Below are positions 12,155 to 52,719 of a stretch of 64,000 nt of DNA, one piece after another; position 1 is the first letter of the stretch, and every line of letters starts with the position of its first letter. The position numbers and the translations under genes were made by a program. Under the pieces are notes generated by a model that worked only from the letters and a program-made list of their open reading frames with translations, had not been told where the DNA came from and did no database searches. Source of the stretch: Desulfuromonas sp. AOP6 (lineage in GTDB: Bacteria; Desulfobacterota; Desulfuromonadia; Desulfuromonadales; SZUA-540); contig NZ_AP022810.1 of NCBI RefSeq assembly GCF_009731355.2, forward strand, positions 2,756,001 to 2,820,000, written 5' to 3'.

Positions 12155-12394
12155 TTATTCTTTTTCGGTGATGCTCAGTCGATAATGGGCCCCTTCTTTG
12201 TCCACCGTGACGCCATAACCCATATTCTCCGCCGCTTCGGCAATGCGCGTTGTTGAATCCCGATTATCGGACAGCACCTCCAGTACCAGTGTTCCCTGTC
12301 GCAGCGCCGCCTGATGGATGTTGATCTCTTTCAACGCGACCAGCAGAGTGGAGGGGCAGATCTGGTTGCGAATATCGAGCTTCAGGATTTCCAT
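12155..12394 (-). CDS. TusA/SirA-like sulfur carrier family protein
   Basis: A 79-residue protein starting MEILKLDIRNQICPST. TusA-family proteins pass sulfur as a persulfide on the Cys of a CPxP motif. Here the Cys14 is kept but the second Pro is Thr (CPST). The rest fits the family: a helix after the Cys, then the LVLEVLSDN strand. Start chosen at the ATG behind GGAGGG; a longer open frame to 12586 runs into yedE and is rejected. It sits 31 bp after yedE, a pairing typical of YeeE/YedE transporters, so it probably receives the sulfur or selenium species imported. Confidence 0.88.
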   Translation of the reverse strand: MEILKLDIRNQICPSTLLVALKEINIHQAALRQGTLVLEVLSDNRDSTTRIAEAAENMGYGVTVDKEGAHYRLSITEKE

Positions 12395-12425
12395 ATGGTC
12401 CCTCCACCAGAATGGACGCGCAGGA

Positions 12426-13535
12426 TCAGCGCAGGACAACCTTGACGAAAAGCCGAGAGCCCAGCCAGGCGCCGGGGAACAGCCCCAGGATGAAGAGCAG
12501 GCTCTGGGTAACCAGCAGGGGACCGCCACCCATAAGATGCCAGATGTTGCATCCCGGTGCCAGACGGGACGCAAGCCCCATGACAACTCCGCCCAGAACA
12601 GCGGAGAAAGCCTGCCGCCAGGGGAGCTTGAAAGAGAGATGAAATTCGCCGAGAGTCATGGCCGAGGCGGCAGAGCCCAGGACGATACCAGCGATAAGAG
12701 GAAACTGCAACAGTACCACGCCATCAAGAGTAGGACCGCCACCACCATAGAGCGGGCGGCCACCGAAACGATCCACGGCCATCAGCGTCTCGGCCTGGAA
12801 ATAGGCGAGGCCGGCCACGTGCTCCGGGAAAAAAAGCTGTTCCATCCAGCTCCCCATCTTGGCATAGGAGGTGGTCACGCCCAAAGGGGCTCCCAGTAGC
12901 CAGCAGGAGGACACGCCAATGAGGGCCAGCAGCAGAGCGGCTTTCCAGGGCTGAAGGTACCCGGAAACCACCGTAGGTCTCTCCATGGCTCTCGTTCGGA
13001 ACCAGCGCCCTATGGGAAAGGCCAGGATGACGGCAAGCCCAAGGACCATCGGTGTTGTCGTCATCCCCAGATGCACCGGCAGAGTTTTCCCCGCCAAGGG
13101 CAGCTTGAGATGATCGGTCACCACCATCCAGGCCGGGTGAATTTCGGCATAGAGAACACTGCCGACAAGCAGTCCCAAAAACGCCAGCAGACTCGGAAAT
13201 CGTCCGGCGCCCATCTTGTAGAGCGTACCGACGACGCATCCACCGGCCAGCACCATGCCGATGCCGAAGAAAAAACCGCCCAACAGATTGGTCAGGGCCG
13301 GGGTTTTATAGAGGACCTCCATGGTCGGAAAAAGCCCGGCCAGACGGCCGGCTTCGAGGAGCACCATGCTGGACGCGATCAGTAGCAGCAGACTGCGCTG
13401 CATGCCGTGCACACCCGCTAGAAAAACGTCGCGGAACATGCCGGCGATACAGAAGTCGGCACGATGCATCACCACACCAGCAGCCAAACCCAGCAGCAGA
13501 GAGGAGCCGACAATCAGAAAGGTATGAAACGTCAA
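12426..13535 (-). CDS. yedE: YeeE/YedE family sulfur or selenium transporter
   Basis: Inner-membrane protein of about 369 residues with around nine hydrophobic helices. Family motifs are present: HRADFCIAGMFRD near the N terminus, GGCVVGTLYKMGAGR in the middle and LAPGCNIWHLMGGG near the C terminus, each with the conserved Cys/Gly pattern thought to relay thiosulfate or selenium compounds. The start is not trivial. The longest frame begins with a TTG at 13598 and an ATG lies at 13568, but neither has a ribosome site. The TTG at 13535 has GAGGAGG eight bases upstream and fits the sigma-54 promoter at 13583. First gene of an operon with the TusA-like protein and a GGDEF-EAL protein. Sulfur versus selenium cannot be decided from sequence. 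Confidence 0.88.
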   Translation of the reverse strand: MTFHTFLIVGSSLLLGLAAGVVMHRADFCIAGMFRDVFLAGVHGMQRSLLLLIASSMVLLEAGRLAGLFPTMEVLYKTPALTNLLGGFFFGIGMVLAGGCVVGTLYKMGAGRFPSLLAFLGLLVGSVLYAEIHPAWMVVTDHLKLPLAGKTLPVHLGMTTTPMVLGLAVILAFPIGRWFRTRAMERPTVVSGYLQPWKAALLLALIGVSSCWLLGAPLGVTTSYAKMGSWMEQLFFPEHVAGLAYFQAETLMAVDRFGGRPLYGGGGPTLDGVVLLQFPLIAGIVLGSAASAMTLGEFHLSFKLPWRQAFSAVLGGVVMGLASRLAPGCNIWHLMGGGPLLVTQSLLFILGLFPGAWLGSRLFVKVVLR

Positions 13536-13582
13536 AAAAGCGACCTCCTCGGGTAAAGGTGCGATCATGCAGACATCTATTA

Positions 13583-13598
13583 GCAAAAACTCAGCCAA
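13583..13598 (-). promoter_or_regulatory. Possible sigma-54 promoter of the yedE operon
   Basis: The minus strand reads TGGCTGAGTTTTTGCT: GG and GC at correct spacing, perfect TTGC, and two mismatches in the -24 element. It would start transcription near 13571, which supports translation from the TTG at 13535 behind GAGGAGG. Confidence 0.5.
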
Positions 13599-13835
13599 TA
13601 GAGGAGCACATCATCATATCCATTGATTTCAAAGGACTAATATGATTTTAATCCTAAGTGCGCTGGGTGACTCGATGGCGATCTGTGGAAATCCCCTGAC
13701 CGAGACCGTGAAAAAGCGGCATATGCCGCCTCATTCCGCGCAAAGAAGAGATTCAAGCCGATACAGCTTGCACTTTGACCACCTTCGATTAGAATCAGAA
13801 GATATCGTACACTATGCCGAAAAAAGGAGGGTTCC
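13599..13835. other. Divergent intergenic region yedE / wrbA
   Basis: Holds leader sequence of both genes. A TTGACC near 13780 could be part of a wrbA promoter, but no -10 element at good spacing is evident. No coding signal is seen. Confidence 0.5.
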
Positions 13836-14456
13836 ATGAAAAACATCCAGGTTCAGGTGGTCTTTTACAGCATGTACGGTCATGTCTACCAGATGGCCGA
13901 AGCCATCGCGGCAGGTGTGAATGAAATCGAAGGGGCCGAAGCCCTGCTGCTGCAGGTTCCAGAACTCATGAACGAAGAAGCCCTGAAAGCCGCCGGGGCG
14001 GCCAAGACCCGCCAGGCCTTTGGCCACATTCCCGTGGCACGCCCGGAGCAGCTGGCCGACGCGGACGCCATCATCTTCGGTACCCCCACCCGTTTTGGCA
14101 ACATGTGCGGTCAGATGCGCAATTTTCTCGACCAAACGGGCAAGCTCTGGCTGGAGGGAAAGCTCATCGGCAAGGTGGGCAGCGTCTTCACGTCGACGGC
14201 GACTCAGCACGGCGGCCAGGAAACGACCATCACCAGTTTCCACACCACCCTGCTGCACCACGGCATGATTATTGTCGGGGTACCCTATTCGGAGCAAGGG
14301 CTGCTCAACATGACGGAGATCTCCGGCGGCACCCCTTACGGCGCCAGCACCCTGGCTGCCGGGGATGGCTCGCGCCAGCCCAGTGAAAACGAGTTGGGCC
14401 TGGCCCGCGCCCAGGGACGCCGGGTGGCGGAAATCACCTTGAAACTAAGCCGGTGA
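13836..14456 (+). CDS. wrbA: WrbA-type NAD(P)H:quinone oxidoreductase
   Basis: Flavodoxin-like FMN enzyme of 206 residues that reduces quinones by two electrons and limits oxidative stress. The FMN phosphate loop is the [13 protein letters not shown] segment (12-24). GTPTRFGNM (about 87-95) and the [12 protein letters not shown] stretch (about 127-138) are characteristic of WrbA rather than plain flavodoxins. Length is as usual for the family. ATG preceded by AAGGAGG. Single gene ended by a strong hairpin. Confidence 0.95.
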
Positions 14457-14529: not shown

Positions 14530-15225
14530 TCAGGCAGCTCTTACCTGCGTTGTTTCCCGCGCCTCCTCATGGTTTTCTTCCTCCACTTTTTCCTCATGCT
14601 CCTCGACTTTCTCCCATCCTGTCCACATAGGGACAATATGTGCCATCACGGTATGACCCAGGGTAGCCAGATAAACATGGGTGAAGAGAAAGGCGCATAG
14701 AGCGCAGGCCAGCAGAAAGTGCAGTCCTACCAGAAACTTCAAACCGCCAAAGATAAGGACCAGCTCGCGCAAAGGGGCGATATTCATCAGCAGCAGACCG
14801 GAGACGATGACCAGGGGGACCAGGATCATCATGATGACCAGGTAGGCCGACTTCTGCATGGGATTGAACTTGTTGTCCGGGGTGGTGTGGTGTGGGTTCG
14901 GTTTTCCCCGGAAGTAATTGAAGAAGTAGAACACCCCTTGCCGCACGAGACCGCGCTGCAGATCGTCCTTGCCCGGCAGATACAATTTCTTCAGCGTGCC
15001 GGCGACCACCAGGTAATAGAAAAGCCACAGGCCGAAAGAGATCGCCACGACAACCCCGGCCGTATTGTGCAGTCGGATGGCGGCCCGATAGCTGCCGAAA
15101 AGGTTCACGTACTCGGGAAAACGGATCTGGATACCTGTCGCGATCAGGGTGATAATACCCAGGGCGTTGAGCCAGTGCCAGATGCGGACAGGTGTCGGCT
15201 GCAGATAGATCATTTTTGCTTTCAT
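14530..15225 (-). CDS. cbcB: CbcB-like dihaem cytochrome b (quinone oxidoreductase subunit)
   Basis: Integral membrane cytochrome b of 231 residues in the cytochrome b561/thiosulfate-reductase fold. Four to five helices are visible (about 17-35, 52-75, 125-148, 158-185). Candidate haem ligands are His in IWHWLNAL (TM1), RLHNTAG (TM2), VGLHFLL and FTHVYLATLGH (last helix). The C-terminal tail (about 205-231) is strongly acidic. It begins 2 bp after the heptahaem cytochrome gene, so both should form one complex that takes electrons from menaquinol and passes them to periplasmic cytochromes. The arrangement matches what I recall of Geobacter sulfurreducens CbcBA, used near the thermodynamic limit of metal respiration. 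Homology to that named pair is inferred. Confidence 0.85.
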   Translation of the reverse strand: MKAKMIYLQPTPVRIWHWLNALGIITLIATGIQIRFPEYVNLFGSYRAAIRLHNTAGVVVAISFGLWLFYYLVVAGTLKKLYLPGKDDLQRGLVRQGVFYFFNYFRGKPNPHHTTPDNKFNPMQKSAYLVIMMILVPLVIVSGLLLMNIAPLRELVLIFGGLKFLVGLHFLLACALCAFLFTHVYLATLGHTVMAHIVPMWTGWEKVEEHEEKVEEENHEEARETTQVRAA

Positions 15226-15227
15226 GG

Positions 15228-16280
15228 CTAGTGCCCCTTTCCTTGGCGTTTGCTTCGGGTCAGGAATCGCAGCGTCCCGTGGCCGATGGGCATGATCAGA
15301 CCACCGGCGATGATGGCCAGTCCGATGAGGTTCAACGAGGCGTTGCGCGTAGCCCCCACCATATAGAAATCCGGAGTTCCGTTAAGGGCATCGAGAACGG
15401 CCCCTTCCTCTACAGGCAGCCGACTGTAGGAGTTGTCGGCCCGGGGAAAAGCGACGTAACTGCTCTGCATCGCCTCAGGTCCTGAGGCATGGCAGTAGGA
15501 ACAGTCCCAACGATTCTCCAGAATCTGAAAACTGTGGGTCACCTGCTCCGGCATCATCATGCCTTTAAGACGGATTCCCTCGTTTTTCAGGTCGATCCGT
15601 GAATTGAAGTCTTTCAGTTCGGCCAGGGAGATATGGCCGTCCTCATTGGTGTCCAACAGACGGTCGATATTGTCGCTGCCGGCCAGCTTCTGCAGCTCAC
15701 GGAAAGGTGCCAGCTCAAAGTCACCATAACGGGGGTCACTCTCCCGCTTGATGATATACCAGGTGATGACATACTCTTCCGAGCCGGTGTGACAAGCCAC
15801 GCAGGCAAGCGCCCCGATATGCAGCTCAGCCTGGGGCAGCCACTGCGCATGACTACGGATGGAATCGGCTTCCAGGTGGCAGGTATCGCACTGCTGGTTC
15901 ATGTCATGGCCTGAAACGGCGGTCGGATCATGGACGTTATGGGGATTGTGGCAGTCCGTGCAGGCGGCGTAGTCGCCGTGCATGCTGGCGGCATACTCTT
16001 CATGAACCTCGCCGTGGCAGTCATTGCAGCTGGCCTTTGTGGGTACCAGACCGTCATCGGGGTGCGCTTCTGCCACACTGGCATGACAACTGGTGCAACC
16101 GATCTCCGCATGGGCGGTATGGTCAAACTGCTCGGCCTCGATGACCAGGTCGGCTCCGACCATATCCGCCTCGGCATGGCAGCCGAGACAATCCTCATTC
16201 TCCATGGCCCAGCCCGATGACACCATCAGACTTAGAACCATCACGCTCATCAGTCCTGTTCTACTTATCCATTTCAACAC
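15228..16280 (-). CDS. cbcA: CbcA-like heptahaem cytochrome c with EF-hand-like loop
   Basis: Periplasmic, membrane-anchored cytochrome of 350 residues. After the signal peptide (1-25) come seven CXXCH motifs starting at Cys 31, 62, 85, 107, 131, 160 and 260, the last set apart by about 100 residues. In that gap lies a sequence fitting a calcium EF-hand loop (DTNEDGHISLAE, 210-221). A C-terminal helix (about 315-335) anchors it. Start is the GTG behind AGGAGGG. Located directly before cbcB, it would be the electron outlet of the quinol-oxidising complex. Seven haems plus a partner cytochrome b fit Geobacter CbcA, as far as I recall that protein. No catalytic site for a terminal acceptor is visible, so it most likely relays electrons. 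Confidence 0.88.
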   Translation of the reverse strand: MLKWISRTGLMSVMVLSLMVSSGWAMENEDCLGCHAEADMVGADLVIEAEQFDHTAHAEIGCTSCHASVAEAHPDDGLVPTKASCNDCHGEVHEEYAASMHGDYAACTDCHNPHNVHDPTAVSGHDMNQQCDTCHLEADSIRSHAQWLPQAELHIGALACVACHTGSEEYVITWYIIKRESDPRYGDFELAPFRELQKLAGSDNIDRLLDTNEDGHISLAELKDFNSRIDLKNEGIRLKGMMMPEQVTHSFQILENRWDCSYCHASGPEAMQSSYVAFPRADNSYSRLPVEEGAVLDALNGTPDFYMVGATRNASLNLIGLAIIAGGLIMPIGHGTLRFLTRSKRQGKGH

Positions 16281-16314
16281 AACACGGCCCTCCTTTAGTT
16301 GACCACGCGACGAA

Positions 16315-16548
16315 TTAACGTAAAGCGACCCGTCTGGCCTTTTTCTTCTTTTCGCTCCATTCGTCCAGCAGGGAACGGAGCCCTTTTAAGGCCGCCATGA
16401 GCTGAGCCACCACTACCAGAGCGCAATACGCGAGAAAAACCCAGATGACCAGACCGCTGGCCCCATCGGGGACAAACGAATTAGCCCAAGCCGATGTGGC
16501 TGTCCCCAGCATCCCTATTGCCAACAGACTAAGAACCGCTGCTTTCAT
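16315..16548 (-). CDS. Small one-helix membrane protein, copy B
   Basis: A 77-residue protein: signal-like N terminus cut near SAWA-NS (about 22), then a single helix (SGLVIWVFLAYCALVVVAQL, about 29-48) and a Lys/Arg-rich cytoplasmic tail. ATG chosen behind AAGGAGG; a longer frame to 16599 lacks a ribosome site. It is a paralogue of the next gene upstream (16645-16881), sharing the GLV-WVFL--CAL-VVAQL core. Position between the receiver-like gene and cbcA suggests an accessory or assembly subunit of the cytochrome complex, which is inference. No known domain recognised. Confidence 0.82.
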   Translation of the reverse strand: MKAAVLSLLAIGMLGTATSAWANSFVPDGASGLVIWVFLAYCALVVVAQLMAALKGLRSLLDEWSEKKKKARRVALR

Positions 16549-16644
16549 ACTCTTGCCTCCTTTTGCGCCCCAGGAGCTGCGGCGGCCAGGGATTTTCATC
16601 TGCTTGCGGCCGCCGCGGACTGCCTTTGGCGATCTGACGTGCGC

Positions 16645-16881
16645 TTATTCATTTATTTGAGATTTCGCGACCTTGGGGGAAGGGCTGAAAGCCCCTTTGA
16701 CCAAGCCAAACAGCATCATGGCAGCGGGGAGAAGCTGGGCGACCACGATCAGGGCGCAGAAGCCGAGAAAAACCCAAACGACCAGTCCACTGGAATCTTC
16801 CCGACCGGCGGCGGCCAGGGCCGGAACGACAGAAACGATCCACATACTTGCGGCTGCCGACAGAATACGCGTTGCTTTCAT
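16645..16881 (-). CDS. Small one-helix membrane protein, copy A
   Basis: A 78-residue protein with a signal-like segment (1-24, ending ALA-AA) and one strong helix (about 32-60, SGLVVWVFLGFCALIVVAQL), followed by a polar tail. ATG behind AGGAGG. Same architecture and core sequence as copy B 96 bp downstream, so the two arose by tandem duplication. Part of the sigma-54-driven cytochrome operon. Function unknown; a stabilising or quinone-site subunit of the CbcBA-like complex is one possibility. Confidence 0.82.
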   Translation of the reverse strand: MKATRILSAAASMWIVSVVPALAAAGREDSSGLVVWVFLGFCALIVVAQLLPAAMMLFGLVKGAFSPSPKVAKSQINE

Positions 16882-16892
16882 GACATCCTCCT

Positions 16893-17321
16893 CTATTGTG
16901 GGTTGACAGATAACTTTCTGGCGTGACCGCCAGCGAGGCGGTTTTCCAGTTCCTCAAAAGCACATTTCAAGGCCAGCCTGATTTCCTCGCGGTCACGGGA
17001 ATCCAGGGGCTTAAGCGCGTGATAAAAGATGCCATCCCGCCGGATCCGGCGTTCCATGGCCAGGGAAACCTCGTTGGACATGAGAATGATGGGAAGGTCG
17101 CGGTTGAGCATTTTAAAGAGCGGGATCAGATCGGCGGCGGCCAGTTCGTCAAACTCACTGCCCAGCAGCACCACCTGGACGTTTCTTTTCAGAATGTCCC
17201 TCAAAACACGGGCCGCCGAGTTGGTCGCCACCACCTGATAGCCGGACTCGATGCAAAGGGCGGCCATCTGTTTTCTGACGGCGGGATCTTTATCGGCTAT
17301 GAGAATCGCTCTTTCCATCAT
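16893..17321 (-). CDS. Degenerate receiver-domain protein
   Basis: A 142-residue single receiver-like domain, first gene of the cytochrome operon. The start matches a receiver (ILIADKDPAVRKQM with the acidic pair) and the conserved Lys is kept (HALKPLD). The phosphoacceptor position is lost: the third strand reads VVLLGSEFDE where an Asp is expected. It is therefore likely a phosphorylation-independent or partner-binding module. ATG lies behind TGAGGATG. It may report or modulate the redox circuit upstream, but this is inferred only from position. Confidence 0.85.
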   Translation of the reverse strand: MMERAILIADKDPAVRKQMAALCIESGYQVVATNSAARVLRDILKRNVQVVLLGSEFDELAAADLIPLFKMLNRDLPIILMSNEVSLAMERRIRRDGIFYHALKPLDSRDREEIRLALKCAFEELENRLAGGHARKLSVNPQ

Positions 17322-17432
17322 GGCATCCTCATTTCATCTGGGGTTTGCGGCCATAAACTATCCGCCGCATTATCCTGAACCCTGTCCAGCCAACCTTCAT
17401 CGCTTGCTTCGTCTTGTCTTGTCTTCCTGAAA

Positions 17433-17450
17433 TTGCACCGCTTGTGCCAA
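17433..17450 (-). promoter_or_regulatory. Sigma-54 promoter of the cbcBA-like operon
   Basis: The minus strand reads TTGGCACAAGCGGTGCAA: perfect TGGCAC, correct spacing and GTGC for TTGC. Transcription would start near 17423, about 100 nt before the ATG of the receiver-like gene. Confidence 0.72.
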
Positions 17451-17928: not shown

Positions 17929-18450
17929 TCAGGATGGATTCGAAGCCGAGCGCACGAATTGATAAAGCAGCTCTTTCTCTTTGGCAAGAGCGTGCTGGGT
18001 TTCAGACCAGGTTCGATAGTGTTCAAGTCCGAGGATAGTGAGGCCGGCGATGAAAACCGCCCAGAAATTGCCCTTCAGTGCATTGCCGGCCCAGTAGAAC
18101 AGATAAAAAGCTCCCAGATAGCCCAGATGCGGCCACCCTTTGTAGACCCCCGTCCCTTTGGCCATGCGCGCCAGCAGAATCGTCAGGGCGGAAAAGCTGT
18201 ACACCGCCAGGGCAAGACTGATCAGATTGGCCGGTGGCGGCGCTCCCAGCAGTTTTCTCGTTTCCAGAGAGAAAAGGTCGTACAGATCAAAGGACTGCGC
18301 ACTGGCAAAAAGGACGCTCACCAGCACAAAAGAGAGGATGGCCCAGAGCCCGGTCCGGGCCCGGCGCTGAAGAACACCGATGCTCTTTTCGATCTGGGCG
18401 CGCCGCTGCTCCGGCGTCAGGAAACCATTTTCCGGCGAAGGGGTCTTCAC
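17929..18450 (-). CDS. Unknown membrane protein of the haem-sensor operon
   Basis: A 173-residue protein with a charged cytoplasmic start (1-30, coiled-coil-like) and about four hydrophobic helices (34-53, 75-95, 106-122, 128-143), then a helical tail. I recognise no family. It starts with GTG one base after the stop of the haem sensor gene, behind GGAGG, so it is translationally linked to that sensor. It may be a membrane partner that transmits or dampens the redox signal. No conserved His or Cys pattern suggests cofactor binding. Confidence 0.8.
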   Translation of the reverse strand: MKTPSPENGFLTPEQRRAQIEKSIGVLQRRARTGLWAILSFVLVSVLFASAQSFDLYDLFSLETRKLLGAPPPANLISLALAVYSFSALTILLARMAKGTGVYKGWPHLGYLGAFYLFYWAGNALKGNFWAVFIAGLTILGLEHYRTWSETQHALAKEKELLYQFVRSASNPS

Positions 18451-18451
18451 A

Positions 18452-19303
18452 TCAGGCCTCCGGAGTTACTGAGGGTTTCTCCGGCGAAGTGCTTTGCGCC
18501 GCTTCGAATGATTCATTTTCGTGCAGTCGAGCTGCCAGTCCATGAATAGAGCGGCCCAAAAACGCGACTTCGGCATTCTCGTCGGGCAGGGGATGGTTCA
18601 GTTCACCTTTCAGTGTTTTTTCACTGAAATCGAGCAGGTTTTTGATCGGCTGCAGGACATTCCGATGCAAGAGAGCGGCGACACCGCCAACGGACAGGAG
18701 CAGGATCATCAGGCAGAAACCCACCAGTCCCTGGCCGAGCGTGGCGAGGGTGGCATTCAGCGGCTCCTCCGAGATACCGATATCCAAGGTGCCCAGCACC
18801 CTCTCCTGTTCCGAATGGACGTGGCACTCACCAGCGAAGCAGCTGGGTTCATTGTAGATAGGGACGGTGATGGCCATGACGTCCTGACCAGCCTCGTTAG
18901 TATAGCGCCGGGTCCGTTCGTTCATGCCCAGGGTGGCCAGAGGGACTGGATCACTGTGGCACTGAACGCAACCTTCCGCCTCTTTTTTCACCATCTGATT
19001 GATTTCGGACTGGTCGGAAGAGAAGGTGATGATCCCCTTCTTGTTGAAGATGCGCAGATGCACCAGGTCCTTGCTTTCCCCCACATACTGGATGGTCGCG
19101 GCGAGAGATTCCCGGTCTGATTTCAACATGCTGTAGCGCGTGGCCTTGACCACCGTGTTCGCCAGACTGTTCTGCTGTTTGATCTCATCCGCCACCATGT
19201 TCTGCCGGTTGTAACTGTACAGCAGGATACTGCACACGACGACGAAACCGGTGACGGTGAGAGCAACGGGGACGATGGCTTTGAACGACAAGCTCTGTCT
19301 CAT
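18452..19303 (-). CDS. Periplasmic two-haem-motif sensor without kinase domain
   Basis: A 283-residue membrane sensor: helix 1 (about 8-30), periplasmic domain (31-190), helix 2 (about 190-212), HAMP-like segment (213-265) and a short tail. The periplasmic domain has CVQCH (112-116) and an atypical CFAGECH (155-161), so two c-type haems are likely. No HisKA, HATPase, GGDEF or MCP domain follows, so the protein must act through a partner. Its haem motifs have exactly the same residue numbers as in the kinase at 21772-23358. Likely partners are that kinase, the lone receiver just upstream, or the membrane protein downstream. ATG at 19303. Confidence 0.87.
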   Translation of the reverse strand: MRQSLSFKAIVPVALTVTGFVVVCSILLYSYNRQNMVADEIKQQNSLANTVVKATRYSMLKSDRESLAATIQYVGESKDLVHLRIFNKKGIITFSSDQSEINQMVKKEAEGCVQCHSDPVPLATLGMNERTRRYTNEAGQDVMAITVPIYNEPSCFAGECHVHSEQERVLGTLDIGISEEPLNATLATLGQGLVGFCLMILLLSVGGVAALLHRNVLQPIKNLLDFSEKTLKGELNHPLPDENAEVAFLGRSIHGLAARLHENESFEAAQSTSPEKPSVTPEA

Positions 19304-19381: not shown

Positions 19382-19828
19382 TCACGATGAAAACCGGGAC
19401 TCAGACAAAAAACCCTCTTTGGAAGAGGAGGGTCCTTCGGCACGATCCGAGAATTGTCGACGACGCCAATCGACGGCTCTTTGAGTCTGATAGAGAATCT
19501 GCCCCGGGGTGAAGGGCTTGGATAAAAAGTCAAAAGCCCCGGCCACCATAACTTCTGCGGCCATCTCTGCCGTGGCGTACCCGGTGACAATGAGCACAGG
19601 CACCTCGGGTTGCAAGCGGCGAATCGCTTTGAGCACCTCGATTCCACTCATTCCAGGCATTTTCAGATCCGTTATGACAAGGTCGAAGGAACACCTCTGA
19701 AGACACTCCAAAGCCTGCACGCCACTGCATGCCACCGTCACCTGCTGTCCGTCCCGCTCAAGAACCTTCTGCAGACCGTTTCGGATCACCTGTTCGTCAT
19801 CGACAATCAGAATATGCGCCCGGATCAT
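19382..19828 (-). CDS. Single-domain response regulator
   Basis: A 148-residue receiver (about 5-125) with complete phosphorylation residues: acidic pair in ILIVDDEQ, phosphoacceptor Asp in LVITDLKMPGMSG, Thr in IVTGYA and Lys in FLSKPFTPGQIL. No output domain; a Ser/Glu-rich tail follows. Closely similar to the receiver of the sigma-54 activator at 20338 (both share VITDLKMPGMSG-EVLKAIR), so it may be a truncated duplicate that competes for the same kinase. First gene of the operon with the haem sensor, behind a sigma-54 promoter. Confidence 0.93.
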   Translation of the reverse strand: MIRAHILIVDDEQVIRNGLQKVLERDGQQVTVACSGVQALECLQRCSFDLVITDLKMPGMSGIEVLKAIRRLQPEVPVLIVTGYATAEMAAEVMVAGAFDFLSKPFTPGQILYQTQRAVDWRRRQFSDRAEGPSSSKEGFLSESRFSS

Positions 19829-19905
19829 AACCGCAACCGCTTCCTCCTACCTTCCGGCAGGTATTATCCCCTTCCCCAAAGTGATTCTCCCCCATGCTTC
19901 ATAAA

Positions 19906-19921
19906 GCATCGAATGTGCCAA
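19906..19921 (-). promoter_or_regulatory. Sigma-54 promoter of the receiver/haem-sensor operon
   Basis: The minus strand reads TTGGCACATTCGATGC: perfect TGGCAC, exact spacing and ATGC for TTGC. The -12 element is about 78 bp from the ATG at 19828. Confidence 0.65.
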
Positions 19922-20030: not shown

Positions 20031-20337
20031 ACAGATGAGCTCCCCCTTTCGCCCCTCCTGTCCTTGTTTCTGTCGTCTAAGGTGCTGAAACAAATAGACC
20101 GTTGGCATTATGCGCTCCTGTATGCAGAAAATATACGTCATCCGGTTCTTTGCCGTCCCACCGACGGGAGACAAAACGACGTTGCTGCTCACGCCGCTCC
20201 AGGCTGGATTATTAGGGCAAAAACCCCATTGCTTTTAGGGTTGAATTTGGTATTGTTTAACGAGTTTTTTTGCATATTCCGCCACCCGCCGTCTCTCCCT
20301 GACCCGCGGAAATTTTGTTGAATTGAGGGAGTTATAC

Positions 20338-21759
20338 ATGAGAAAAGGCGATGCCAACATCCTGGTTGTGGATGATGAGAGTGTTATCCGTGAAGGGGTG
20401 CGGCGAATTCTGCTGCAGGAGGGCTACCAGGTCGAAACCTCATCCAGCGGCAACCTGGCCCTCGAGCGCATGCAGTCCGCCGATTTCGACCTGGTCATTA
20501 CCGACCTGAAAATGCCGGGGATGAGCGGTATGGAAGTGCTCAAGGCCATCCGCATTCTGCAGCCGGACGTACCCGTTGTCATCATCACGGGATACTCCAC
20601 GGTGGAAACCGCCGTGGAGGCCATGAAATTCGGCGCCTTCGATTACCTGGCCAAACCCTTCACCCCTGAGCAGATTCTCCATTTAGCCGAATCCGCCCTC
20701 AAACACCGCATCACGCAGATAGAAAAGGCGGTCCGGGGAGACTCTCCCGGCAAGCACCCCGGCTTCGACCTCTTCGTCGGGGAAAGCCGGCAGATGGAAC
20801 GCGTCTACCGCCGGATCCTGCAGGTCGCCCCAACGGACAGCACCGTGCTCATCACCGGGGAAAGCGGCACGGGCAAGGAACTTCTGGCCCGCGCCATCCA
20901 CAACCACAGCTCCCGCAAGGATCAGCCTTTTCTCGCCGTCGACTGTACATCCCTGGCGGAGAGCCTGCTGGAAAGCGAGCTTTTTGGGCACATGAAAGGC
21001 TCTTTTACCGGCGCCGTACAGAGCAAGGTGGGGCTTTTCAAGGTGGCCGACGGCGGCACCCTCTTTCTGGACGAAGTCTCCAATATCAGCCTCACCACGC
21101 AGGCCAAACTGCTCCGGGTGCTGCAGGAAAGGGAAATCACTCCCGTCGGCGGCAACAAACCGGTTCCCATCAATATCCGGCTCATCGCCGCCACCAACCG
21201 TAACCTGCGGGAGATGTGTGCCAAGGGGGAGTTTCGCGAGGACCTCTTCTTCCGCCTCAACATCATCCCCGTCGACCTCCCCCCTTTGCGGGAACGGCAG
21301 AGCGACATTCCCCTGTTGACCCGATTTTTTCTGGAAAAGTTCGCCCGCGAACTGGGCAAGGAGATCCGTGGACTTTCACCGGCTGCCATGGAACACCTGA
21401 ACCAGCACGCCTTTCCCGGTAACGTCCGCGAACTGGAAAACATCCTGGAGCGCGCTGTCGTCCTGGCGGAAGGATCCGTCATCGAAATCGACAACCTGGA
21501 GCTCTCCGGCCAGACGAAGGAGGACGGCGCCCCTTTCTGTCAGTTCATTCCCAAAACGGCGGAAGAGCTGAAAGAGACCAAACAGAAGATACGAGAGATG
21601 GCCGTCATGCCGGTGGAAAAGGCTTTCGTGCTGGACGCGCTGGAAAGGAACAACTGGAATGTCACCCGGGCGGCGGAAGAGGTCGGCATGCTGCGCCCGA
21701 ACTTTCAGGCCTTGCTGAAGAAGCAGGGCATATCCATTCGGGACAGGCTTCCTGGCTGA
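20338..21759 (+). CDS. Sigma-54-dependent response regulator (BccR-like)
   Basis: Enhancer-binding protein of 473 residues. Receiver 1-120 (Asp in VITDLKMPG, Lys in LAKPFTPEQ), AAA+ domain about 145-380 with Walker A GESGTGKE, Walker B TLFLDEV and the sigma-54 loop as GSFTGA, and a Fis-type helix-turn-helix near the C terminus (NVTRAAEEVGMLRPNFQALL). Start is the ATG behind GAGGGAG; the TTG at 20323 gives five extra residues and has no ribosome site. It faces away from the haem-sensor operon and converges with the haem kinase gene (12 bp between stops). The setting beside a CbcBA-like operon resembles Geobacter BccR, as far as I recall, so it is the likely activator of 17433 and 19906. Confidence 0.94.
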   Translation: MRKGDANILVVDDESVIREGVRRILLQEGYQVETSSSGNLALERMQSADFDLVITDLKMPGMSGMEVLKAIRILQPDVPVVIITGYSTVETAVEAMKFGAFDYLAKPFTPEQILHLAESALKHRITQIEKAVRGDSPGKHPGFDLFVGESRQMERVYRRILQVAPTDSTVLITGESGTGKELLARAIHNHSSRKDQPFLAVDCTSLAESLLESELFGHMKGSFTGAVQSKVGLFKVADGGTLFLDEVSNISLTTQAKLLRVLQEREITPVGGNKPVPINIRLIAATNRNLREMCAKGEFREDLFFRLNIIPVDLPPLRERQSDIPLLTRFFLEKFARELGKEIRGLSPAAMEHLNQHAFPGNVRELENILERAVVLAEGSVIEIDNLELSGQTKEDGAPFCQFIPKTAEELKETKQKIREMAVMPVEKAFVLDALERNNWNVTRAAEEVGMLRPNFQALLKKQGISIRDRLPG

Positions 21760-21771
21760 CGCAGCACCCTC

Positions 21772-23358
21772 TCAGCCGGCGGTTGCTGCCGTGGCGGGGT
21801 TGCTGAAGGGCAACGTAATGGTGAAGGTCGTCCCCTTCCCCTCCTGGCTGGAAACCTCAATCTGGCCGCCATGATTTTCCACGATTCCGTAAGAAACGGA
21901 CAGGCCCAACCCCGTGCCGCGATTCTCCTTGGTCGTATAGAAGGGATCAAAGATGCGGGCCAGATTCTTTTCTGAAATACCGCACCCCGTATCGGAAACA
22001 CGAATAAAGACTCCCCGCCCTTCGCTCTCCACCCCCGTCGTGATACTCAGACTGCCATCCCTTTTTTCTTCCATGGCCTGACTGGCGTTGATGAGGATAT
22101 TCATGAACACCTGTTCCAGCTGATTCGGATCAATCAGCACCTGGGGCAGTCCCTCACCATATTCGCGCACAATACGGATATTCTGGAAATCCGCCTGCCT
22201 TTCGATCAAGGCCAGCGTTCTCTCCATGACGGTGTTGATGGACTCCGGACGTTTGTGCGGGATGGATTCCCGCGAAAAACCAAGCAGCCCCCGCACGATT
22301 TCCGCACAGCGCTGCGTCTCCCGCACCACCACGGCGAGGTCGTCTTTCAGGCCGGCATCCAGGCGGGGATCGCTTTCGATCATGGAGGCATACATGAGAA
22401 TCCCGGTGAGGGGATTGTTGATTTCATGGGCGATCCCGGCGACCAGTTCGCCGATGGTCGCCAGCTTCTCCGAACGGACGAGTTTCGACTGCATGGACTG
22501 GATACGGGCGGTGCGTTCTTCGACCTTCACCTCCAGCGTGTTGGCCCACTCTTTAAGCTCCTGCTGCGCGGCCTGAAGATTCTGGGCCATGTCGTTAAAA
22601 GCCAGAGCCAACTCGCCGATTTCATCGGATGGCACGGTGGTGATGCGGCTGTCCAGCTCGCCATCAGCCAGACGTCGCGTATGATAAAGCAGCCGATTGA
22701 CCGGCACGTTCACCAGTTTATGGGTCAGAAAAGCCAAGCTGAGGGAAACCAGCAGCAGCACAAAGGCCGTAAGGAGAACAATCTGATTGCGGCTGGCAGC
22801 AGCCTGAGCTTCCATCCGATCCATGGGAACAATGACATCCAGGGTACCGAGGACCGTGGCACTGGCCGGATGGACATGACAGGCGGCGGTGTAACAACTC
22901 GGCTTATTGTAAATGCCCTTGGTCACCCCCAGAAAATTGGTGCTCCCCTCGGAAAAAAATCGGGCGCGCCCCTCCGTCGGCACATCGGAGTGCGGCGGCT
23001 TGTTGTCGATATGACAGCCGTTGCACCCTTCGGAATCGACGTCCAGGGTGCTGCCGACTTCTTCCTTGGCGGTGGAATAGCTGATCACCCCATCTTTGTT
23101 GAACAGCCTTATGCGGGAAATCCCCTCCTGGGCCCCGACCTCTTCCATCATCTGGTAAACACGGGCGCGATTATCCACCAGCATCTCGTAGTGGGTCGTG
23201 CTGAGCAGGGTCTCACTCAGATGCTCGACATGCTCGATGGCGTTGTCCGTACTCATGTTCCGTACATTCTTGATCGTCATGAAAGCAAAGAAGCTCATGG
23301 CGACCAATACCACGGCGCTCGTTCCCAAGGTGAATTTGGTGCTCAGTTCCAATGACAT
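21772..23358 (-). CDS. Histidine kinase with periplasmic two-haem-motif sensor
   Basis: Membrane kinase of 528 residues. Helix (about 9-30), periplasmic domain with CNGCH (112-116) and an atypical CYTAACH (155-161), second helix (about 188-208), HAMP (210-262), coiled coil, HisKA with the His in GIAHEINNPL and HATPase with DTGCGI and GTGLGLSVSYG. Both haem motifs would hold c-type haem in the periplasm, so kinase activity should follow redox potential or a haem ligand. The start is the ATG at 23358 behind GGAGAG; the frame extends to 23475 but overlaps the terminator of the pst operon. Lies tail to tail with the sigma-54 activator, its likely phosphorylation target. Confidence 0.93.
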   Translation of the reverse strand: MSLELSTKFTLGTSAVVLVAMSFFAFMTIKNVRNMSTDNAIEHVEHLSETLLSTTHYEMLVDNRARVYQMMEEVGAQEGISRIRLFNKDGVISYSTAKEEVGSTLDVDSEGCNGCHIDNKPPHSDVPTEGRARFFSEGSTNFLGVTKGIYNKPSCYTAACHVHPASATVLGTLDVIVPMDRMEAQAAASRNQIVLLTAFVLLLVSLSLAFLTHKLVNVPVNRLLYHTRRLADGELDSRITTVPSDEIGELALAFNDMAQNLQAAQQELKEWANTLEVKVEERTARIQSMQSKLVRSEKLATIGELVAGIAHEINNPLTGILMYASMIESDPRLDAGLKDDLAVVVRETQRCAEIVRGLLGFSRESIPHKRPESINTVMERTLALIERQADFQNIRIVREYGEGLPQVLIDPNQLEQVFMNILINASQAMEEKRDGSLSITTGVESEGRGVFIRVSDTGCGISEKNLARIFDPFYTTKENRGTGLGLSVSYGIVENHGGQIEVSSQEGKGTTFTITLPFSNPATAATAG

Positions 23359-23482
23359 GAGAACTCTCCGCGTGAATGATGGTTCCTTTGGGCTGACGGC
23401 CGGAAAAAACAATTCCTTTAAAGGTACCTTTTTTTTCGTCAGGAACAAGGGCTTTCCTGTTCCCTCCCCCCTCAAATAAAAA

Positions 23483-51109: not shown

Positions 51110-51886
51110 TTAGCGGGAAATGCGCGGATGGCACCCCTTGCAATCGTCCAGAGGGAAAGCCACCCGCAGGTGACAGACCCCGCAGAACTTGCCTTCGAGT
51201 ATATATTCCATGGAAAAATGCTGGGTCGTCTTCTTTTTGACGTTGAAGATGTCCGGGTGGCAGTTGGCGCAATCGAGCCAGGGCGTATGCTTGGCATGAG
51301 GGAAGTACGCCGGTGGCACATAGGTCCATTCGGCTTGCAGCTCCAGCTCGCGGTCGAAATCCATCGGCTTCTCGTCCGCATGGAAAAGACTGTAGGCCGA
51401 CCTGATAAGCCCATCTTCCAAAGCGTAGCCCCAGTGGATCTTGTTGCCGAAAGGCGCCGCCGGCAGGGGCCGGCTGAAAACTTCAAATTTCTCCGCATCC
51501 GTCGACCCGTAACCGGAATGGCACCTCTCACAGTTGCCTTCCGTATGTCCGAAAGCCCTCACACCGTCATGGCAGGAGCCACAGTAGAGCCCGTTACGGT
51601 TCTCAGCCTCGGTGATCTCCGTCTTGTTGGTGGCAAAGGCAAAATCGAGCTCGAAATGACAGACCCGGCAGCTGAATTTGGCGCGATGGCTCCAGTGGGG
51701 GAAGAGCACCGGTTTGATCTTGTTTTCCACCGAGGTTCGGCTGATCAAGACATTACCGTACTCGTGGGGGGCCGGCAGCGGCGGGAAATCCCAGTACTTC
51801 CCCGCCGCTGCCCCCGTTTCCGCCCAAAGGAGGCCCAGAACGCACCATCCCAGTATCCAGACCCATCTTGACCCTATCGTTGTCAT
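51110..51886 (-). CDS. Periplasmic hexahaem cytochrome c, copy B
   Basis: A 258-residue secreted protein (signal about 1-28) with six CXXCH motifs, CRVCH, CGSCH, CERCH, CANCH, CGVCH and CKGCH, in two sets of three. Each set begins with an HxxH before its first haem (FPHWSHRAKFSC; FPHAKHTPWLDC), as in c7-type triheme domains. It thus looks like two c7 domains in tandem, a plausible electron carrier between inner and outer membranes. Same layout as copy A just upstream, so the genes are duplicates. ATG at 51886. Confidence 0.93.
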   Translation of the reverse strand: MTTIGSRWVWILGWCVLGLLWAETGAAAGKYWDFPPLPAPHEYGNVLISRTSVENKIKPVLFPHWSHRAKFSCRVCHFELDFAFATNKTEITEAENRNGLYCGSCHDGVRAFGHTEGNCERCHSGYGSTDAEKFEVFSRPLPAAPFGNKIHWGYALEDGLIRSAYSLFHADEKPMDFDRELELQAEWTYVPPAYFPHAKHTPWLDCANCHPDIFNVKKKTTQHFSMEYILEGKFCGVCHLRVAFPLDDCKGCHPRISR

Positions 51887-51945
51887 ACGCTATTTCATCC
51901 CTCAGGTCTTTGGCGCGGACGGACCGGCGGCCCTCCCGCGCCAGA

Positions 51946-52719
51946 TTAATGCACCGGCTGGGTGTGACAGCGCTGGCAGTCGATATTGGGGAACGCCACC
52001 GTATCGTGGCAGACCCCACAGTATTTGCCGTTGAAGATGTCCTGCATGCTGTAGGCTTGGGCACTCTTCTTGACGGGAAATATCTCGGGATGACAGAGTT
52101 CGCAGCCGTTCCAGACCACGTGCTTCTGGTGTGACAGGATGATGTTGGGCATATTCGGCTCGGTGGGGGTCAGATCGAATTTATCCGGCTCTTTGATTTT
52201 GGCCCGGGAGATGGAGACACCCTCGAGGTAGTCCCTGACCGTGACCAGCCCCTCGTCTTCGGCCTTGAGCCAGTCGATGCCATTGCCGAAGCGCTCTTTG
52301 GGCATTTTTTTGCGGAAATCATAGAAGTTGTTCTTGAACAGCACGTTCTTGCCGTAAGAGTGGCAGCGATCGCAGTTTTTTTCCGCCTTGGCGACGGAAA
52401 AAGCTTCCTGGCCATTGTGACAGGCGCCGCAGTAGAGGCCGTTGATATTGTCCGTCTCCGTCATCTGCGTCCCTTCGGCGGTCATGGCGAAGCCGATATC
52501 CACATGACAGAGGCGGCAGGTGTACCTGGCCCGGTGTACCCAGTGTGGAAAAACGACGGGCGCGATATTCTTCTGCTCGGAATAGTTGTTCATGACCACG
52601 GAGCCGTATTCATGCAGCTTGGGGCGCTTCTGCTTCATGCCAAAGGTTTCCGCTCCAGCCACCCCGACCAGCATCGCCATAAGCAGCCACGCCATTAATC
52701 CGACAATCCTCTTGTTCAT
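51946..52719 (-). CDS. Periplasmic hexahaem cytochrome c, copy A
   Basis: A 257-residue secreted protein (signal about 1-23) with six haem motifs, CRLCH, CGACH, CDRCH, CELCH, CGVCH and CQRCH, again two c7-like sets with HxxH leaders (FPHWVHRARYTC; LSHQKHVVWNGC). First gene of a three-gene operon followed by copy B (59 bp) and a small secreted protein. Likely a periplasmic electron carrier; partner oxidoreductase unknown but the CbcBA-like complex is a candidate. Confidence 0.93.
   Translation of the reverse strand: MNKRIVGLMAWLLMAMLVGVAGAETFGMKQKRPKLHEYGSVVMNNYSEQKNIAPVVFPHWVHRARYTCRLCHVDIGFAMTAEGTQMTETDNINGLYCGACHNGQEAFSVAKAEKNCDRCHSYGKNVLFKNNFYDFRKKMPKERFGNGIDWLKAEDEGLVTVRDYLEGVSISRAKIKEPDKFDLTPTEPNMPNIILSHQKHVVWNGCELCHPEIFPVKKSAQAYSMQDIFNGKYCGVCHDTVAFPNIDCQRCHTQPVH

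Follow-up and report, generated by a model that had tools for sequence, protein, structure and literature searches.

A rearranged Cbc5/CbcBA-type gene cluster in Desulfuromonas sp. AOP6, probably under haem-sensed sigma-54 control, with an accessory module that is not specific to CbcBA

We analysed a 64,000-nucleotide stretch of the genome of Desulfuromonas sp. AOP6 (the window, within which all coordinates are counted) and find in it a gene cluster that probably encodes a menaquinol:cytochrome c oxidoreductase of the Cbc5/CbcBA type in rearranged form. In the reading we favour, the cluster is under haem-sensed sigma-54 control and carries an accessory module, formed by small S proteins and a pseudo-receiver, which is not specific to CbcBA. 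Its centre is a tightly packed five-gene operon on the minus strand (17321–14530) coding, in this order, for a receiver, the small proteins S1 and S2, a seven-haem cytochrome c and a cytochrome b. The original prediction for this DNA had described these five genes, and all of them are present on that strand and at that place; it overlooked the CbcD and CbcE homologues, the genes of the kinase with the haem sensor and of the sigma-54 activator, and another promoter-like site, and it did not remark that cbcC is missing.

The CbcA-like cytochrome (15228–16280, minus strand, 350 amino acids) has seven CXXCH motifs, at residues 31, 62, 85, 107, 131, 160 and 260, all of them without variation across 16 homologues; a membrane helix (residues 314–332) lies at the C-terminus. 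The loop DTNEDGHISLAE (residues 210–221), which had been called EF-hand-like, is a canonical 12-residue loop of the EF-hand type with D210 and E221 invariant in 16 homologues, though its Pfam EF-hand score falls under the cut-off. The periplasmic part has a solved homologue (PDB 28pb_A, E 1e-99), whose record is titled only 'Cytochrome c' and whose best match among the fetched loci reaches 76%. The CbcB-like cytochrome b, encoded by the last gene of the operon (14530–15225, minus strand, 231 amino acids), matches PF01292 with an E-value of 4e-29, and its histidines H17, H53, H112, H169 and H183, invariant in 70 homologues, are candidate ligands for two haems b. Among the 52 loci having both flanks, cbcB follows cbcA in 51; the frames in the compared loci are open reading frames taken without gene annotation. 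At three loci (L088, L104 and L111) the CbcA and CbcB profiles match within a single open frame of about 610 amino acids, which suggests a fused CbcBA. Elsewhere in the AOP6 genome, a 625-amino-acid open frame that resembles CbcA over part of its length and matches PF01292 weakly likely encodes a CbcL-like fused protein.

In Geobacter sulfurreducens, GSU0593/0594 have been published as a PF01292 cytochrome b and a heptahaem cytochrome c, and Cbc5 as cbcEDCBA (GSU0590–0594), with a 12-haem CbcC, a CbcD with HAMP and two haem sites, and the membrane protein CbcE. The window locus resembles this system in that a membrane-anchored seven-haem CbcA is followed directly, in the same order, by a PF01292 CbcB, homologues of CbcD and CbcE are present, a receiver gene lies near cbcA and control of the sigma-54 type is suggested. 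The likeness to CbcBA put forward in the original prediction is therefore upheld by subunit type and gene order, with no top match to a different cytochrome family. On the other hand, cbcDE lie upstream with a promoter-like site of their own instead of downstream, the S genes number only two, a further receiver (RR2) is present, and no 12-haem cbcC (CbcC/OmcQ) is found at the locus, the best match elsewhere in the genome covering half of the query at 43% identity. The CbcC query also matches, distantly, two six-haem c7-type cytochromes (PF14522) encoded in tandem at 51113–52719 of the window, minus strand.

The gene order of the window locus is identical in a second genome of the genus (G001). 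A different order is found in relatives of the L051 type, where the sensor kinase and the divergent sigma-54 activator are followed by S, RR, S, S, cbcA, cbcB, cbcC, cbcD and cbcE (RR being the operon receiver). CbcA homologues occur in 51 of 98 related genomes, and the 80 named loci that were kept come from Geobacter, Geomobilimonas, Citrifermentans, Malonomonas and others; the CbcBA-like locus is common in Desulfuromonadales. A search with an approximate sequence of PpcA, as a marker for G. sulfurreducens, gave no near-identical match at E <= 1e-36 in 13 + 48 genomes of two families.

Evidence for sigma-54 control comes from the sites upstream of the two putative transcription units. The site TGGCACAAGCGGTGCA (17434–17449, minus strand) matches 10 of the 11 bases of the -24/-12 consensus and ends 112 nucleotides before the receiver ATG, upstream of RR-S1-S2-cbcA-cbcB; the second, TGGCACATTCGATGCT (19905–19920, minus strand), matches 9 of 11 and lies upstream of RR2-cbcD-cbcE. 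By the window count alone TGGCACAAGCGGTGCA is unremarkable, because two such sites were found in the 64 kb where 1.45 are expected. Related operons were searched upstream for sites with at least 9 of 11 consensus matches and compared with dinucleotide shuffles (100 runs). Such a site is present in 27 of the 50 operons that carry S or RR genes, against a shuffle mean of 1.8 and a maximum of 6, and in 5 of the 28 operons that carry neither (shuffle, 1.1). Both window sites are conserved in G001, the second with one change (TGGCATATTCGATGCT). This conservation and the enrichment in related operons rule out that TGGCACAAGCGGTGCA is a chance match, as the window count would have permitted, and the near-perfect promoter originally proposed is sustained.

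A sigma-54 activator had also been expected by analogy with Geobacter, and the gene of a sigma-54-dependent response regulator does lie nearby, divergent from the cbc genes (20323–21759, plus strand). Its product has the architecture receiver, AAA+ and Fis helix-turn-helix (PF00072 7e-34, PF00158 1.7e-70, PF02954 3e-6), and homologues occupy the corresponding place in relatives. Convergent with it is the gene of a histidine kinase with a periplasmic haem-c sensor (21772–23475, minus strand; HisKA 1.6e-14, HATPase_c 7e-28, HAMP 4e-14), found at the matching place and in the matching orientation in relatives such as L051. There is a single sigma-54 gene (rpoN) in the genome. The two -24/-12-like sites are observed; that the adjacent activator drives them, and that both are expressed, we infer from this arrangement.

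The remaining genes of the second transcription unit bear on how the published subunits should be understood. The CbcD homologue (18452–19303, minus strand, 283 amino acids) combines a domain of the haem-c sensor type with a HAMP region (weak match, 0.03) and has no kinase; its haem sites are a CXXCH at residue 112 and a CFAGECH at residue 155, and homologues were found in 47 loci. Its sequence can be aligned to the sensor half of the neighbouring kinase (30% identity over 250 residues, 2e-31), so that it resembles the redox sensor copied without its kinase, and its best scores in the family libraries, weak ones, are to histidine-kinase sensors. Judged by these likenesses, a signalling role for CbcD seems no less likely than the electron transport that its published name implies. 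The CbcE homologue (17929–18450, minus strand, 173 amino acids) is a predicted four-helix membrane protein; its AlphaFold model has four long helices with a predicted local distance difference test score (pLDDT) of 90, and a fold search against the PDB returned no match.

One could hold instead that CbcD and CbcE do carry electrons, as genuine subunits of Cbc5, and that the separation of cbcDE from cbcBA reflects operon shuffling only. The published annotation as cbcEDCBA speaks for this, as does the constant company of the two genes, cbcE being present in all 33 surveyed cbcA loci that have cbcD. However, besides the homology of CbcD to a kinase sensor, some cbcA loci carry cbcE without cbcD, and CbcDE also accompany the unrelated Hmc-like core described below, and we regard this alternative as rather unlikely.

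The first gene of the second unit encodes the stand-alone receiver RR2 (19382–19828, minus strand), which derives from the activator's receiver domain by an old inverted duplication and has kept its phospho-acceptor Asp. RR2 and the activator gene share a 198-nucleotide inverted repeat, 71% complementary, and RR2 is the fastest-evolving gene of the locus, with 79% identity to G001. The inverted copy may be a remnant of the rearrangement in which cbcDE were relocated.

The receiver that heads the five-gene operon (16893–17321, minus strand, 142 amino acids, PF00072 1e-9) is of another kind, since its phospho-acceptor Asp is replaced by Gly. In an alignment of 42 S-linked receivers and RR2, this site holds G in 37 rows, S in two, A in two, a gap in one and D in one. 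The sole D row is RR2, which is separate from the operon receiver; no aligned operon receiver retains the Asp, and the degenerate state noticed in the original prediction is thus consistent across the aligned operon receivers. The protein is also the most conserved of the locus and the one under the strongest purifying selection, with 99.3% identity to G001 and a ratio of nonsynonymous to synonymous substitution rates (dN/dS) of 0.016. The consistent loss of the Asp together with this dN/dS rules out a decayed gene, and a receiver so strongly constrained yet unable to accept phosphate points to a role independent of phosphorylation. Atypical, phosphorylation-independent response-regulator receivers likewise have the Pfam receiver fold with the acceptor Asp replaced. 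The window pseudo-receiver differs from them as a distinct subfamily, marked by a conserved LLG.xFDE-like motif where the Asp is lost, by HALKP at the Lys position and by linkage to S genes.

S1 (type Sb; 16645–16881, minus strand, 78 amino acids, family profile 3.5e-30) and S2 (type Sc; 16315–16548, minus strand, 77 amino acids, 9e-26) are paralogues, each with a signal-like N-terminus and one membrane helix, which in S1 is long (predicted helix 32–65, pLDDT 78). S1 is second only to the pseudo-receiver in conservation (97.4% identity to G001, dN/dS 0.031); for comparison, CbcA has 88% identity and a dN/dS of 0.121. Against Pfam, NCBIfam and the PDB the family gave no match beyond single weak matches of single members. 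Alignment A2, in which one row has a mistyped N-terminus, served as search profile only, and alignment A3, built from DNA references, was used for the fold.

Based on these profiles, S genes are present in 63 of the 98 relatives, one genome having as many as 17 copies, and also in other families of the phylum. They accompany the cytochrome unevenly: 48 of the 51 genomes with cbcA have them, against 15 of the 47 without. The DNA upstream of cbcA is visible in 73 loci; S genes lie there in 45, RR in 35 and either of them in 46. On the cbcA tree, rooted at the midpoint only, S and RR occur on both sides of the deepest split, so that they were probably ancestral at cbcA loci and lost later.

The same accessory genes were found around a different enzyme. 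In 20 regions fetched elsewhere in the phylum, the set S-pseudoRR-S and CbcD-CbcE recurs, with the haem-sensor kinase and the activator where visible. Within this set, the CbcA-CbcB core is found in L168, L181 and L183–L185, and in part in L180. The regions L167, L169–L171, L176–L179 and L182 have in its place a second core of a pentahaem cytochrome, an Fe-S protein and a polytopic membrane protein. L117 has this second core too, and there the Fe-S subunit is nearest to HmcB (3e-120) and the membrane subunit nearest to HmcC (1e-100), both below the model cut-offs. The membrane subunit was also considered as an NrfD protein; it has no Pfam match, and its nearest NCBIfam model is HmcC, under the cut-off. 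These Hmc-like complexes, for example in L170 and L182, share with the window locus the S-pseudoRR-S set, CbcD, CbcE and, where visible, the kinase and activator, whereas their core is unrelated to CbcAB and is not found in the window. They are perhaps the equivalent of Geobacter Cbc3. The S/pseudo-receiver set is therefore not specific to CbcBA.

This result bears directly on the suggestion, made in the original prediction, that the receiver and the two small proteins are new parts of the complex, that is, dedicated structural subunits of CbcBA. Their genes head the operon in many loci, the S genes follow cbcA across genomes, and within the genus no other product of the locus is as well conserved as the pseudo-receiver and S1; the small proteins are also far from absent at homologous loci, as the upstream survey indicates. 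However, the same gene types also occur with the Hmc-like core, S pairs stand alone in many copies, and 27 of the 73 cbcA loci have neither S nor RR upstream. Nor would the parts be entirely new, since the G. sulfurreducens neighbourhood already contains GSU0596, annotated 'response receiver', and the hypothetical GSU0597 near cbcA (GSU0594). Dedicated subunits are thus improbable, and the least probable of the explanations weighed here.

The S units that stand apart from cytochromes raise another explanation. The S sites fetched elsewhere in several genomes are mostly pairs that lie apart from cytochrome operons and are often joined by a receiver, and a sigma-54-like site (at least 8 of 11 matches) is present on the sense strand in 18 of 21, compared with 2 of 21 on the opposite strand. 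The AOP6 genome has one such extra pair (L140 7752–8323, plus strand; G000:C1 near 1,920,000), followed by a receiver-PilZ gene that retains its Asp, with no cytochrome operon nearby. S proteins and pseudo-receiver might then form a sigma-54-controlled membrane-stress or envelope module, Psp-like in style, whose expression alongside cbcBA would only reflect a shared low-energy signal. Published data from G. sulfurreducens fit this if certain proteins are assumed to belong to the S family: cobalt stress raises cbcBA and several hypothetical inner-membrane proteins to a similar degree, and the changes in GSU0596/GSU0597 run parallel to those in GSU3409/3410/3489. Against it, S proteins match neither Psp nor other stress families, and in many loci S genes share an operon with a respiratory core. 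We consider a stress module unlikely, if less so than dedicated subunits.

The reading we favour, a rearranged Cbc5/CbcBA-type cluster with a shared accessory module, has points against it as well. The 27 cbcA loci that have neither S nor RR upstream mean that neither is essential to CbcBA, and S units elsewhere may serve a function of their own unrelated to respiration. An adaptor role of the pseudo-receiver is a proposal from sequence and gene context, the enzymatic function in AOP6 is predicted from the family, and the putative orthology of the window cytochromes with GSU0594/GSU0593 is drawn from subunit type and gene order.

On this favoured reading, and by analogy with the family, CbcB would oxidise menaquinol in the membrane and pass the electrons to the seven-haem CbcA and from there to periplasmic cytochromes. 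The haem-c sensor kinase would read the periplasmic redox state and activate the divergent sigma-54 regulator, which would fire both promoters and thus express pseudoRR-S1-S2-cbcA-cbcB and RR2-cbcD-cbcE. The S proteins would sit in the inner membrane, where the pseudo-receiver may bind them, or else the regulator, from the cytoplasm. The module could then tune how the co-encoded quinone enzyme, of whatever kind, is assembled, placed in the membrane or activated, while CbcD, as a kinase-less copy of the sensor input domain, would probably report or damp the redox signal rather than act as an electron-carrying subunit.

Next to the operon, the region 12155–14456 of the window encodes a TusA-like protein and a PF04143 sulphur transporter and, on the opposite strand and convergent with cbcB, a WrbA-type NAD(P)H:quinone oxidoreductase.

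The operon is thus of a known kind in a rearranged form, and its S/pseudo-receiver module is apparently undescribed: in the family libraries and the literature searched, a coverage that excludes most subscription papers, we found no description of such a module shared between unrelated respiratory cores. It is conceivable, though somewhat short of an even chance, that S proteins and pseudo-receiver represent a new type of respiratory accessory module, in which single-helix membrane proteins under sigma-54 control and a phosphorylation-independent receiver plug into structurally unrelated quinone oxidoreductases and set their assembly or activity by a haem-sensed redox signal. Published work has CbcBA operating at redox potentials near or below -0.21 V, with a part in Geobacter respiration near the energetic limit, and has proposed a part in electron uptake by the bacterial partners of methane-oxidising archaea. 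If the receiver and the S proteins are indeed a control or assembly unit common to several quinone enzymes, the published picture of Cbc5 with five subunits would need revision, and a widespread, apparently uncharacterised family of S proteins would gain a testable role.

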